IMG/VR virus record: IMGVR_UViG_3300045789_000282
Coordinates: 1 to 26,732 of that record
Strand: one strand, 5' to 3'
DNA: 26,732 bases
Source: a virus
The notes below the pieces were generated by a model that saw nothing but the letters and a program-made list of their open reading frames with translations, had not been told where the DNA came from and searched no databases. The translations under genes were made by a program, and so were the position numbers. Shown piece after piece: positions 2,876 through 8,090 of this stretch. Each line of letters starts with the position of its first letter. The stretch's first letter is position 1.

Positions 2876-3174
2876 GACACACCTCCTAATGCTAAGATGG
2901 CAACTCTGTTACCGTTGTTGCTATCCCATTTCATAACTTTACCGGTGGTAACACTGATAATGTTAGCCTTAGCAGTTACAAGGTATTTACTGCCTCGATA
3001 TTCCACTACAGTCGCAGGTTTGTATTTAGTAGGGAACAGCTTACTAGTACCTACCTGAAGAACCTCTACACCTGTAGGGATAAGACGCAGGATACGGCGT
3101 AGATGGTTACGTTCTTCAGTAACCATGTATGTGTGTCCTTTATACTGCACGTATGCACCTATTGTTGTGTTCAT
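2872..3174 (-). CDS. Small protein with two SH3/KOW-like repeats
   Basis: This is a 100-residue basic protein. ATG 3174 is preceded by GGAG (GGAGATATAAAATG). It contains an internal duplication: residues 6-20 (GAYVQYKGHTYMVTE) match residues 53-69 (ATVVEYRGSKYLVTAK) in spacing and pattern, each followed by an I-x-x-x-x-T-G turn. The beta-rich pattern with Y-x-G and V-T is like small SH3 or KOW-type barrels, which often bind nucleic acid or proteins. This is fold-level inference. It is the first gene of the leftward operon downstream of the hub at 3175-3821 and overlaps the next start by ATGA. Confidence 0.7.
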   Translation of the reverse strand: MNTTIGAYVQYKGHTYMVTEERNHLRRILRLIPTGVEVLQVGTSKLFPTKYKPATVVEYRGSKYLVTAKANIISVTTGKVMKWDSNNGNRVAILALGGVS

Positions 3175-3250: not shown

Positions 3251-3334
3251 GGGGGTAGGGGTATGACTCTAATGTGTTGTTGTATAGGAATCCGAATCCG
3301 AAGTGGGGGGTGTCTTTGGAGACCGGGGGTAGGT
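3251..3334 (+). repeat. G-tract cluster
   Basis: On the plus strand GGGGGG TA GGGG is followed by a second GGGGGG and, after the small hairpin GTCT TTGG AGAC, by GGGGG TAGG. The runs are all on one strand and in a gene-free segment of an AT-rich genome. They could form a G-quadruplex or mark an origin or packaging signal. Confidence 0.5.
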
Positions 3335-3382: not shown

Positions 3383-3463
3383 CTAAAAAATTTTATAAAA
3401 AATTTATACCCAGACACCACGGAGGTACTATATAGGAGACTCTAAAAAATTTTATAAAAAATT
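3383..3463. repeat. Direct repeat of 22 bp, AT-rich
   Basis: Positions 3383-3404 and 3442-3463 are identical over 22 bases (CTAAAAAATTTTA then TAAAAAATT), 59 bp apart. Each copy has a TATATA motif on its left side (near 3350 and 3430). They may be duplicated promoter UP-elements for leftward transcription or DNA-unwinding elements. Confidence 0.6.
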
Positions 3464-3466
3464 ATT

Positions 3467-3503
3467 GGAACCTCCAACAGGAATCGAACCCGTTTCCTCG
3501 CCA
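3467..3503 (-). tRNA. tRNA-like 3' half (T-arm and CCA end), probably not a full tRNA
   Basis: On the minus strand the segment contains ACGGG TTCGATT CCTGT, a five-pair T-stem with a canonical loop, followed by the seven-base acceptor strand TGGAGGT, base T and an encoded CCA ending at 3467. A possible acceptor partner CCCTCCT lies about 100 bases upstream near 3565 and gives only five pairs. I could not fold a normal D-arm and anticodon arm; a GTGCAAA loop (Cys-type) near 3524 has an imperfect stem and a long variable region would be needed. It may be a decayed tRNA, an unusual class II tRNA, or a captured tRNA end such as an attachment site. Confidence 0.4.
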
Positions 3504-3690
3504 CTTATGCTTTTTAAGAGTTTGCACCTTTTTGTTGGTACAACGGCTAACCGTACGGTAGGAGGGGACAATAGCAACTAGTTTCAATAACTGCTCCAGT
3601 AGCGGCTCTCGCAAGGGCAAATACTGTTTATATTGGGGTATTTAAGGATGTTGTTGATTTGTAAGGGGTTTTTTAAAGTAATCTCTTACG

Positions 3691-3790: not shown

Positions 3791-3821
3791 ACTATGCCTA
3801 CACCCTGATATTGAGAGTACT

Positions 3822-4274
3822 ATGAAGAAGCCTTTTATGACCTACTATGAGAATATGGCTAAGTTAGCTACCATAGCTAATAAGCAAACTATGTTTTTAG
3901 CACATATCCTTAGTAAAGCTGAGTTTGATAGCGATCTTAAAATGTTAGTGATTGATTTAACCCCTAGAGTTAAAAGAGCAATACTGCAGGATATTGGCGC
4001 TGTTTCTAAAGATCCACTTAACTTAGCTAGAACCTACACTAAGCAGTTAGTTAAGGCAGGGCTTATTAAGCAAATAGAAAGAGGGTGTTACGCTATTGAC
4101 CCAGAAAGTTACAGTTATAGTACCTACGTTTCTAAAGAGCTTAGATTACGTGCTCGTAATATTTTTGAAAAGGTACAGTACTCTGCAGATGGAGCAGAGA
4201 AGAAAGAAGTTTGGGTAGAACTTAAATCTGGAGAGATGAGAGAGATTACCATAACAGATAAAGATATTTATTAA
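3822..4274 (+). CDS. RepL-like winged-helix DNA-binding protein
   Basis: This is a 150-residue basic protein. Residues about 12-90 have the layout of the RepL-type winged helix: a helix with ANKQTMFLAHIL, then LTPRVKRAILQDIG, then LARTYTKQLVKAGLIKQIE and the wing GCYAIDPESY. The pattern L-x-x-x-G-L-I-x-x-I, then G-x-Y-x-I-x-P is typical of this group, which starts plasmid replication or acts as a regulator. The remaining 50 residues are charged. The ribosome binding site is weak (GAGAG). The gene is the first rightward gene after a repeat-rich hub, which fits an initiator or regulator that binds those repeats; this link is inference. Confidence 0.6.
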   Translation: MKKPFMTYYENMAKLATIANKQTMFLAHILSKAEFDSDLKMLVIDLTPRVKRAILQDIGAVSKDPLNLARTYTKQLVKAGLIKQIERGCYAIDPESYSYSTYVSKELRLRARNIFEKVQYSADGAEKKEVWVELKSGEMREITITDKDIY

Positions 4275-4317
4275 TTATTTATAGGTACTTGCCACCTTTG
4301 ACGGCATGGAGATAAAC

Positions 4318-4536
4318 ATGAGTGAGAAAAAAACAAATGACCATATAGAAAGAATGAAGATAGAGCATAAAGAACTTGTTGATAGACAAGGGGTTTTAAA
4401 TGCGTTTATTCACGGTAACTCTATGTTTAAAGATTTAGACGACTTGGAACAAGCCAGAATGATTAAGCAGTCCGGTTTTATGGGAGCTTATGCAAGGGTA
4501 TTGGAACAGCGTATTTGGACTGCTGTAGGGAAATAG
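4318..4536 (+). CDS. Small phage protein of the crAss001_48-related type
   Basis: ATG 4318 is chosen over the in-frame ATG 4306 because GGAG in ATGGAGATAAACATG is the ribosome binding site of the second ATG. The 72-residue helical protein has the order E-H-K-E-L, then L-x-A-F-I, an acidic F-x-x-L-D-D-L-E-Q-A segment, then Q-x-x-x-M-x-x-Y-x-x-V-L-x-x-R-I. This arrangement is common in a widespread family of small phage proteins of unknown role, sometimes labelled crAss001_48-related. It is probably a helical hairpin. A perfect palindrome (4541-4553) lies just past its stop. Confidence 0.65.
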   Translation: MSEKKTNDHIERMKIEHKELVDRQGVLNAFIHGNSMFKDLDDLEQARMIKQSGFMGAYARVLEQRIWTAVGK

Positions 4537-4540
4537 AACC

Positions 4541-4553
4541 GTAGCGCCGCTAC
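4541..4553. repeat. Palindrome GTAGCG C CGCTAC
   Basis: A six-pair perfect inverted repeat with one central base sits between two genes. It shares the GTAGC core with the palindrome at 3691-3702 and the direct repeats at 3696-3736. It has no T-run, so it looks more like a protein-binding site or RNA hairpin than a terminator. Confidence 0.5.
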
Positions 4554-4586
4554 CGCAGTGTACAATTTTATAATTAGGAGAGATTT

Positions 4587-4832
4587 ATGGAACCATCAGA
4601 AATATTAGAAAGATTACAAAAAATGAGTAATGGTGAAACTTTTACTTTTACCCTGCACGAAATGACTAAGGCTACTGTACACAAGGCTAATGGTATGTAT
4701 TTACTATTTGAAGTAGAGAACGGTACTGATGAAATGTACATTAATACTTACTATGATTTTCACTTACACTTTTTAGTTGCTAAAGTAACTCAAATTATTC
4801 AGTTTACTGTATCTACAGAAAGGAGTAACTAA
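4587..4832 (+). CDS. Uncharacterised small protein, 81 residues
   Basis: ATG 4587 follows AGGAGAG with six bases between. The protein starts with a short helix (MEPSEILERLQKM) and then looks beta-rich, with alternating hydrophobic and aromatic residues (TFTFTLHEM, MYLLFEVENG). No cysteine cluster, membrane segment or known motif is seen. It lies one base before the next gene, whose ribosome binding site is inside its 3' end, so the two are translated from one message. The role is unknown. Confidence 0.65.
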   Translation: MEPSEILERLQKMSNGETFTFTLHEMTKATVHKANGMYLLFEVENGTDEMYINTYYDFHLHFLVAKVTQIIQFTVSTERSN

Positions 4833-5186: not shown

Positions 5187-5585
5187 GTGTTCTTTACCCA
5201 AAAAGACCTTGGAAGAGTGTACGTTATCCGATTAGTCCCTGTGTGTGGAACAGTAGTCCTAAAGGTAGGTATGACCCACTCTGATAGGGCTACTGATAGA
5301 GTTTTTGAGATACTAAGGTCTTGGTTTAACAATTTTAGGTATGTTCCTTATACTCAACTTAAACTAGACTATGGTTGTGAAGACCCACGAGATATAGAAC
5401 AATTCGTACATAAAGTATTAGAGGAGTACCGGTTTGAACCAGGTAAAAATGTTCAAGGAGGTACTGAAATGTTTACCGGTGTAGATGAGCTAAAACTTAT
5501 ACACTTTATACGTAACACAGAAAAAGTTCCTGGAGAGCTTACTAAGGAAGAATATGAGATTATTGGGAGATTGCTAGCTTTATGA
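5187..5585 (+). CDS. GIY-YIG superfamily nuclease-like protein (T5orf172 type)
   Basis: This is a 132-residue protein. The pattern matches the compact T5orf172/MUG113 branch of the GIY-YIG nucleases: first strand VYVI (residues 11-14), second strand VLKVGMT (24-30), arginines at 34 and 38 in the following helix, and a late G-G-T-E-M-F with the candidate metal-binding Glu94. Known members cut DNA, so a nicking or double-strand cutting activity is expected. The frame is closed upstream at 5175, and only GTG 5187 or GTG 5217 can start it; neither has a clear ribosome binding site. Its stop overlaps the TerS start by ATGA, so it belongs to the packaging operon. Confidence 0.6.
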   Translation: MFFTQKDLGRVYVIRLVPVCGTVVLKVGMTHSDRATDRVFEILRSWFNNFRYVPYTQLKLDYGCEDPRDIEQFVHKVLEEYRFEPGKNVQGGTEMFTGVDELKLIHFIRNTEKVPGELTKEEYEIIGRLLAL

Positions 5586-6115
5586 AACCTGTAACACCAC
5601 CCACAGTAACTAAGTTTGCTGTAGACATAGTAACACCAAAAGAAAGATTACTTTTAGAGGCTTTAGCTTCAGGACTTTCTAGTAAACCTGCTCTAGAACG
5701 TGCAGGGTACGCTGTAAGCAGTAATCACCATAGATACGTTAAGAATGTGTTAACCAGACCCCGAGTAGCTGAAGAGTGGGGCAAGATGAAAAAGAAGACA
5801 AGGCGTAGAATGGAAATGAGTAGAGAAAGGGTTCAGGACATGGTTATGAAAGCCTTTGATTTAGCCGAATCTGTTGAAGACCCTAACGCTATGGTTAGAG
5901 CTGCAGCAGAAATTAATAAGATGTGCGGTTTCTATGCTCCTGAAGAGACAGTAGTTACACTATCTGAAGACGCTAAAGAGTTACAGCACCAACTACATAA
6001 TATGAGTGAAAAAGAGCTACTTAGGTTGAAAGGGGAGAATGATGCTTTAGATGCAGAGTTTGAGCTTGTTAGTGATGAACGTATAACAAAAACTTTAGGA
6101 GACTCAGTTGGATAA
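5582..6115 (+). CDS. terS: Terminase small subunit
   Basis: This is a 177-residue DNA-recognition subunit of the packaging motor. Residues about 18-60 form the helix-turn-helix with the family pattern L-L-L-E-A-L-A-S-G then A-L-E-R-A-G-Y, followed by a conserved K-N-V-L-x-R-P-x-V helix. A basic segment KKKTRRR is at about 70-76, and the central helices should form the oligomer ring. The acidic C-terminal tail probably binds TerL. The ATG overlaps the upstream GIY-YIG stop by four bases, and the 3' end overlaps the TerL start by eight bases. Identification rests on the helix-turn-helix pattern plus position directly before TerL. Confidence 0.8.
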   Translation: MKPVTPPTVTKFAVDIVTPKERLLLEALASGLSSKPALERAGYAVSSNHHRYVKNVLTRPRVAEEWGKMKKKTRRRMEMSRERVQDMVMKAFDLAESVEDPNAMVRAAAEINKMCGFYAPEETVVTLSEDAKELQHQLHNMSEKELLRLKGENDALDAEFELVSDERITKTLGDSVG

Positions 6116-8090
6116 ACCTCGTCAGGCCGACTTAGGTACTCATACTGAAAATATTTTTAAGTGTGTACAGTGTAATGTAGAGAAGAATACTAAAAAGTTT
6201 CAGTACATAAAAGATACAGCTCCAGCAGAATACGCTAACCTATGTAAGCTTTGCTTTAGAGAAAGCTTATCGGAGTATGACGCTGCACAGGTGAGAAAAA
6301 GAGTTCAGGAAAAAGCAGATAAACAAGCTGAAAGGGCGTTAGCAAGAAAAAGAAAAGCAGAGGTAAAAAATAACGCCAAACAACAGGCTAAACAGAAAGA
6401 GGAACAAAAACGAGTTGAAACTGCTGCAGCAAAAGCAGATAGGGAGCTTGCTAGTAGGGTATTAGCTAAACGTAGGTTATTGCACTTTATACAGAAGTTT
6501 GTACCAAAGTACGAAGCTGGTTGGGTTCATCAGGATATTTGTGCTCGACTTGAAAGATTCTTTTTAGACGTAGTAGATAAGAAAAGCCCTAGGTTAATGC
6601 TGTTCGTCCCACCTCGGCATGGCAAGAGTGAGATAGCTAGTAAGAATTTTCCTGCTTGGGCTTTAGGGCATAGACCCGATTTTGAAATAATTGCTAGTAG
6701 TTACGCTGTTTCTCTACCTATGGATTTTTCTCGTTATGTTAAAGACCTTATTAAAAATTCTCTGTATCAAAATATTTTTCCTAATACCGTACTTAAAAAG
6801 GACACACAGTCTACTGAAAGATGGATGACTACAAAGTCTGGTGGTTATGTAGCAGCCGGTGTAGGTGGTGGTATTACGGGTAAGGGTGCTCATATATTTA
6901 TTATTGATGACCCAGTTAAAGATGCTGAAGAAGCAGACTCTGAAAAAATTAGACAGCGTAACTGGGATTGGTATGGCTCTACTGCTAAGACTCGTCTAGC
7001 CCCTGGCGGAGGCTTACTGTTGGTGCAAACAAGATGGCATGATGCAGATTTAGCTGGAATGTGTGTTCAACAAATGTTGGACCATAAAAAGAGCGTTAAA
7101 GACCGTGTAGCGGTATTAAAGGAACAACAGGACGCTTGTATTAATGATCCAGCTAAACAGCGAGTATTTGAAGACGATATAAACAGTACAGAGAAAGAAT
7201 TAACAGAAATAGATAACTGGGAGATTGTTAGTTACCCGGCTATTGCAGAGAATAACGAATACCGGTTAGCTAATGGAGAAGTAATTTTAGGGGATAACCC
7301 TCCTGAAGAACCTTACAGGCTTTTAAGGGTTAAAGGAGAAGCGTTACACCCTGAAAGGTTAAGCTATAACCAGCTTATGAATATGAAGAGGACTATGCAA
7401 CCTCGACATTGGTCTGCGCTATATCAGCAGAACCCGGTTCCTGATGAAGGTATATTCTTTACTACCGATATGTTTAGATATGAAGCACAGTCTCCTACAT
7501 ATAAACATATGCACACCTATATTGCATTTGATTTGGCTATCGGTGAAAAGCAAACTAATGACTGGACTGTAGGTACAGTAATAAAGGTAGATCATGCAGA
7601 TCAAATACACGTAGTAGATATGGTACGGGGTAGATGGAATGCTTTTCAAATAGTAGAGGCTATGTTAGATTTATGCCAAAAGTATGAACCTACTCTACTA
7701 GGTATTGAAAAAGGACAACTTGAACATGCTATTAGACCTCAATTAGAAAAGCGTATGAAAGAAAGAAAGTTGTATCCTCCAATGCCCACAGGTAAAGAGC
7801 AGTTGGTGCCTATTAACGATAAATCATCTAGAGCACGACCTTTACAAGGACGAATGCAACAAGGGATGGTATACTTTCCTGAAAATCAACCTTGGGTAGA
7901 GGTGCTACGACATGAAATGTTAAGATTTCCTGGTGGACTACACGATGATGCTGTAGATTCTTTAGCGTGGAACGTTCGTATGTCTATGGGTAGGGCTGCT
8001 CCTAAGAAACCAAAAAGTAAACAAACTAGATCTTGGAAGAGTAAGCTTAAAGTTCGTGTAGAGGGTAACAGAGATCCTATGGGAGTATAA
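6108..8090 (+). CDS. terL: Terminase large subunit with N-terminal zinc-finger extension
   Basis: The packaging motor ATPase-nuclease has 660 residues, starting at TTG 6108 with AGGAG six bases upstream. Residues 1-60 hold four cysteines (19, 22, 46, 49) in a CxxC...CxxC zinc-finger layout. A Lys/Gln/Ala-rich coiled-coil linker (about 60-120) follows. The ATPase has Walker A PPRHGKSE near residue 170, Walker B FIIDDP near 266, and motif III LLLVQTRWHD near 305. The nuclease has Asp in IAFDLAIG near 475, Glu in LLGIEKGQ near 533 and the paired Asp of HDDAVDSLAW near 615. TerL normally lacks the zinc-finger part, so the protein is longer than the common 450-550 residues. It acts at the portal during head filling. 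Confidence 0.95.
   Translation: MDKPRQADLGTHTENIFKCVQCNVEKNTKKFQYIKDTAPAEYANLCKLCFRESLSEYDAAQVRKRVQEKADKQAERALARKRKAEVKNNAKQQAKQKEEQKRVETAAAKADRELASRVLAKRRLLHFIQKFVPKYEAGWVHQDICARLERFFLDVVDKKSPRLMLFVPPRHGKSEIASKNFPAWALGHRPDFEIIASSYAVSLPMDFSRYVKDLIKNSLYQNIFPNTVLKKDTQSTERWMTTKSGGYVAAGVGGGITGKGAHIFIIDDPVKDAEEADSEKIRQRNWDWYGSTAKTRLAPGGGLLLVQTRWHDADLAGMCVQQMLDHKKSVKDRVAVLKEQQDACINDPAKQRVFEDDINSTEKELTEIDNWEIVSYPAIAENNEYRLANGEVILGDNPPEEPYRLLRVKGEALHPERLSYNQLMNMKRTMQPRHWSALYQQNPVPDEGIFFTTDMFRYEAQSPTYKHMHTYIAFDLAIGEKQTNDWTVGTVIKVDHADQIHVVDMVRGRWNAFQIVEAMLDLCQKYEPTLLGIEKGQLEHAIRPQLEKRMKERKLYPPMPTGKEQLVPINDKSSRARPLQGRMQQGMVYFPENQPWVEVLRHEMLRFPGGLHDDAVDSLAWNVRMSMGRAAPKKPKSKQTRSWKSKLKVRVEGNRDPMGV

Follow-up and report, generated by a model that had tools for sequence, protein, structure and literature searches.

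The window, a 26.7-kb virus record analysed over its full length, carries immediately before its terminase small-subunit gene (terS) a gene that, on profile and model evidence, is a member of the GIY-YIG superfamily and the T5orf172 family and is predicted to encode a nuclease. Linkage of this family to terS in about 60 other phages, together with the presence of an HNH protein or of no nuclease at the same position in relatives, suggests that the protein helps in cutting the viral DNA for packaging.

The GIY-YIG gene and its product

Minus-strand genes of the window end at 3174 and plus-strand genes start at 3822. In the rightward operon the GIY-YIG gene (5187-5585) is followed by terS (5582-6115), the large-subunit gene terL (6108-8090) and a P22-type portal gene. 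The features referred to here are as follows.

3293-3309, plus strand: CGAATCCGAAGTGGGGG, a 17-mer candidate packaging-site element in the intergenic stretch between the divergent genes, 1.88 kb ahead of the GIY-YIG gene
3822-4274, plus strand: first gene of the rightward operon
5187-5585, plus strand: T5orf172-type GIY-YIG gene; GTG start, 132 aa, single domain
5582-5585, plus strand: ATGA shared by the GIY-YIG stop and the terS start
5582-6115, plus strand: TerS, terminase small subunit; weak Terminase_2 and phrog_51 match, orthologues adjoin terL in relatives
6108-8090, plus strand: TerL, terminase large subunit; Terminase_6N, Terminase_6C and phrog_38
6162-6254, plus strand: zinc-ribbon-like stretch at the TerL N-terminus (C19-x2-C22 ... 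C46-x2-C49); weak match to phrog_2340 (phage endonuclease)
8139-10199, plus strand: P22-type portal

The span 5187-6115 of an earlier, sequence-only reading comprises two genes, GIY-YIG and terS, and the ATGA overlap that it described between the stop of one and the start of the other was confirmed from the coordinates. The T5orf172-like GIY-YIG pattern noticed in the same reading was also borne out. The VYVI and KVGMT motifs are present, and the profile search proposed as a check matched T5orf172 (PF10544, 20.9 bits; cut-off 20) and MUG113 (PF13455, 23.1 bits; cut-off 22.3) in Pfam, both above the curated cut-offs, and endonuclease family 681 in PHROG (1e-6). The T5orf172 profile was matched by 53 of the 56 family members, with a best E value of 1.3e-13. 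The AlphaFold model of the protein (pLDDT 92, pTM 0.85) has the core order strand-strand-helix-strand-helix of the GIY-YIG core, and many predicted viral T5orf172 proteins resemble it at probability 1.00. Searches of the PDB by sequence and by fold gave no convincing solved-structure match for the model, so the fold assignment is based on the profiles and the predicted viral structures.

Tyr12, Lys26, Gly28, Arg38, Glu41, Arg51, Glu71, Gly91 and Glu94 are invariant in the family (judged over 47-56 members for Tyr12, Lys26, Gly28, Arg38, Glu71 and Glu94), and the catalytic-type residues of the superfamily (Tyr, the Lys/Gly of the second motif, Arg and Glu) are all present. Glu94, which sits in GTEMF, had been proposed as the candidate residue. 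It is indeed invariant, but Glu71, in the helix following the third strand, is equally so and is the better first catalytic candidate, because the Glu that binds the metal in I-TevI and UvrC sits at this position; Glu94 would then be a subfamily signature. Nearly all family members are 116-170 aa long, and in nearly all of them no NUMOD or HTH match, and so no homing-type DNA-binding domain, was found; the exception is locus L132.

Relatives in N4-like phages

Using tblastn, we detected relatives in Alteromonas phage V19 (vB_AmeP_PT11-V19, WAK44719.1; 53% identical), in R22Y (58%) and in the AD45 phages (37% identity across part of the protein). The R22Y gene stops 1 nt before terS, and the V19 gene ends one base from the end of a record in which terS begins at position 1. 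The AD45-P1 'GIY-YIG nuclease family protein' (phrog_25400, YP_008125997.1) belongs to the same family and likewise precedes homologues of N4 gp69 and gp68 (terS and terL); it differs in its identity of ~30% to the window protein and in the distance of its gene from the gp69-like gene, ~320 nt. In IMG/VR, a scan with the single sequence gave 0 relatives and an alignment-based scan was needed, which returned 31 GIY-YIG loci. The bacterial and archaeal genome contigs scanned contained no relative.

Among 65 distinct GIY-YIG ORFs of N4-like phages (V19, R22Y, AD45 and IMG/VR contigs), 62 have terS at most 1.1 kb downstream, and in 29 of these 62 the spacing is -34 to +13 nt. The remaining three are V19, which is cut by the record end, L140, in which the gene lies between terS and terL, and a Klebsiella outgroup. 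The T5orf172 outgroups, Klebsiella phage RCIP0080 and E. coli phage mEp013, have no annotated or detected terminase gene alongside, so linkage to terS is not universal among small T5orf172 genes. Several contigs (L008, L007, L113, L117, L128 and L137) break off 0.3-1.4 kb before the GIY-YIG gene, perhaps at genome ends.

To measure the persistence of the gene, N4-type TerL sequences were clustered at 95% identity, and the clusters with 700 bp or more of sequence before terS were binned by TerL identity to V19/R22Y or AD45. The gene was present in 13 of 13 clusters at 75% identity or more and in 25 of 27 at 60-75% (38 of 40 at 60% or more), in 14 of 23 at 55-60%, and in none of the 24 at 50-55%, which keep the terS-terL junction. 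On the TerL tree its presence and absence need 3 changes, against a mean of 22.3 when shuffled. Of the 24 positive records searched over their full length, 23, some of them 60-100 kb long, carry a single copy; the exception is L132, with four T5orf172 matches. Over pairs with unsaturated dS that were not near-identical, dN/dS was 0.04-0.16, similar to that of terS and indicative of purifying selection, and no degraded copies were recognised.

Among N4-like phages, L143-L145, L151, L222, L227, L234 and N4 itself lack the gene and have an intact terS-terL, and no substitute nuclease was found at the locus in such phages. In many AD45-clade phages (L005, L012, L014, L017 and others) a ParB-N-like gene precedes the GIY-YIG gene; in L143-L145 and L151, where the GIY-YIG gene is absent, it stands directly before terS.

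The position before terS in the lineage of the window

The window resembles V19 and R22Y in its GIY-YIG protein, but where they have an N4-type TerS, TerL and genome, it has a KPP25-like TerL and capsid and a P22-type portal, so the head genes of this phage are not N4-like. Its TerL and capsid are closest to those of KPP25, phiR18, phiA008 and AP1, and its closest TerL relatives in IMG/VR are loci L028-L107. There is no detectable relationship between its TerS and that of V19, and the two TerL proteins are weakly similar (23% over 168 residues), whereas the GIY-YIG proteins of the two lineages are 53-58% identical. Retention of the gene beside terS, on which the sequence-only reading had asked for evidence, is thus strong in two N4-like clades and confined to the window itself in its own terminase lineage, where 0 of 80 TerL relatives have the gene.

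By a manual count, about 9 of roughly 24 TerL clusters of this lineage with 500 bp or more of upstream sequence have a gene for an HNH-type protein immediately ahead of terS, and the remaining clusters have no nuclease there. The HNH genes end -8 to +16 nt from terS. Their products are mostly of a zinc-ribbon type, with another HNH protein in L032. The zinc-ribbon proteins match endonuclease VII/HNH PHROGs (phrog_1035, 1e-20 to 1e-25), and a structure search gave an HNH fold with PacI as the best PDB match. The HNH gene is patchy even inside one 90% TerL cluster, being present in L047 and L050 and absent from L048. The C-x2-C...C-x2-C stretch of TerL, seen in the window, L028-L032, L039, L040 and L092, resembles the zinc ribbon of the HNH proteins beside related terminases.

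With modest support, the GIY-YIG protein of the window falls inside the V19 clade, and the terminase of the window is KPP25-like. A family linked to N4-like terminases thus lies in the nuclease slot of another lineage, and the gene probably moved between the lineages, by transfer from N4-like phages, to the position that HNH proteins have elsewhere. Independent recruitment of the gene by convergence was rejected given this grouping and the 53-58% identity to V19 and R22Y. At the DNA level, the similarity of the 3.1-5.7 kb region to N4-like phages is limited to the GIY-YIG gene and 74 bp of the first operon gene. The sole detected homologue of that first gene (3822-4274) belongs to an N4-like phage (L009/L204), in which it precedes the GIY-YIG gene, a hint that the two lineages have exchanged DNA.

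We tentatively propose, as a possibility that falls somewhat short of an even chance, that the slot before terS is a place for a terminase-helper nuclease that is open to unrelated folds, and that in the window such a slot, with an HNH gene or with no nuclease before, was taken over by a GIY-YIG protein of N4-like origin that would perform equivalent cleavage at the packaging site.

A possible role in packaging, and its alternatives

The HNH protein gp74 of HK97 promotes cos cleavage together with terminase (PMC9410871). Like gp74 and its relatives, the protein of the window is a small, single-domain predicted nuclease whose gene adjoins the terminase genes at tight spacing and in the same orientation as terS and terL. 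In contrast to gp74, it has a predicted GIY-YIG/T5orf172 fold unrelated to HNH, so it is not a member of the gp74-type family and is at most a functional analogue. With 132 aa, no visible DNA-binding module and a spacing to terS typical of translational coupling, it probably relies on a partner for direction. In our judgement the chances are evenly balanced that it is a small, partner-dependent endonuclease, co-expressed with the terminase, that cuts concatemers at or near the packaging site with TerS/TerL. We infer that such a protein would nick or cut concatemeric phage DNA at or near that site, that TerS or TerL would guide the cutting, and that the cut would serve packaging, as that of gp74 does.

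This packaging role is favoured over chance insertion by the linkage to terS, the purifying selection, the missing homing-type DNA-binding module and the occurrence of HNH proteins in the same slot. The part in packaging or genome ends that the tight overlap was taken to favour is supported to this extent, but an absolute need for the protein is not. Relatives that share the terS-terL junction and lack the gene, named in advance as evidence against the claim, exist in both lineages (including L029 and L265). The protein is therefore not obligate for either terminase, and a universal need for it in packaging is argued against.

In a survey of phage nucleases, T5orf172 genes were enriched near terminases and treated as probable homing genes, with the remark that a homing gene may also serve in packaging (PMC10448857). 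A selfish, or formerly selfish, gene of homing type that resides at a hot spot before the terminase, is maintained through homing or recombination among phages and is not needed for packaging is the strongest alternative, although we consider it rather unlikely. The known T5orf172 homing-type endonucleases (of ICP1 and others; PMC10448857) are of the same family and often lie near terminases, whose neighbourhoods are where T5orf172 genes are commonest (35%), and the region upstream has been called a homing-nuclease hot spot (PMC10448857). The GIY-YIG gene has crossed phage lineages, and alleles without it exist at larger distance. The locus also receives homing-type genes: L132 has in the GIY-YIG slot (3819-4832) a 337-aa composite of T5orf172 and zinc-ribbon/HNH that weakly matches NUMOD1, and in L131, L133, L137 and L147 GIY-YIG genes of the NUMOD3 type lie between terS and terL. 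Such clear homing genes are sporadic, however, and mostly lie between terS and terL, whereas the family of the window is fixed before terS, deep and clade-wide rather than scattered among close relatives. It is also single-domain and single-copy, under strong purifying selection and, apart from the L132 composite, free of an added DNA-binding module. L147 and L125, which are 93% identical, both keep the GIY-YIG gene while the homing-type insert differs. That insert, a GIY-YIG+NUMOD3 gene at 4988-5668 of L147 between terS and terL, is absent from L125, and beside it lie ~420 bp of diverged terL resembling a co-conversion tract.

SLX1 is a GIY-YIG resolvase, T4 endonuclease VII is a structure-specific nuclease, and T4 and T7 couple the packaging of their DNA to the removal of branches. 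The protein could accordingly be a Holliday-junction or branch resolvase that debranches replicating DNA for the terminase, with the link to terS reflecting timing. The match of HNH proteins in the same slot to endonuclease VII PHROGs (phrog_1035) fits such a role. We nevertheless regard it as improbable: there was no specific sequence or structural match to SLX1, Slx1 having scored no better than E 3.1, with a poor TM-score, when the PDB was searched by fold, and N4-like phages that lack the gene have no replacement nuclease at the locus. T5orf172 nucleases with interference roles are also known. Origin-directed nucleases are discussed in PMC10448857. Interference with co-infecting phage or host DNA by a nuclease that is in the late operon by chance is very improbable here, given the strict position and spacing beside terS across two phage lineages and the lack of a separate targeting domain in the protein.

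It is disputed whether nuclease genes beside terminases belong to the packaging machinery or are homing genes, a question raised in PMC10448857. A GIY-YIG family that is fixed before terS in N4-like clades and that also occurs at the HNH slot of another lineage offers a clean test case, with V19 and R22Y in culture. If the protein is a true packaging factor, nucleases of unrelated fold would be able to fill the terminase-helper slot, and phages believed to rely on TerL alone for cutting would have a second enzyme.

No Rfam families or tRNAs were found in the window. A sequence resembling a tRNA 3' half (GGGTTCGATTCCTGT...GGTTCC) lies on the minus strand at 3460-3560, between the divergent genes; neither ARAGORN nor Rfam reported anything at this stretch.

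Candidate packaging sites were recognised in both lineages. The 17-mer CGAATCCGAAGTGGGGG has 37 exact matches in IMG/VR, 30 of them close upstream of window-type terS/terL and in the same orientation, with two further matches on contigs carrying window-type terS/terL. These loci are the window, L028-L038 and L265-L300; in a few of them the called terS ORF starts before the site. Most sites are preceded, at 23-30 nt, by a near-palindromic core of the GGGACTCC/GGGTCCC kind and followed by a G-rich stretch; in the window the core is degenerate. Phages of the V19 clade share AATGGGTCCCATCC or near variants of it 2-4 kb before terS (L004 at 277-290, and L002, L009, L194, L202, L210, L215 and L218). 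Both elements are candidate packaging sites, of cos or pac type for CGAATCCGAAGTGGGGG. In R22Y, the V19-clade element falls within a direct repeat, exact over 335 bp, at the termini of the record, and the GIY-YIG gene is 2.2 kb inward.
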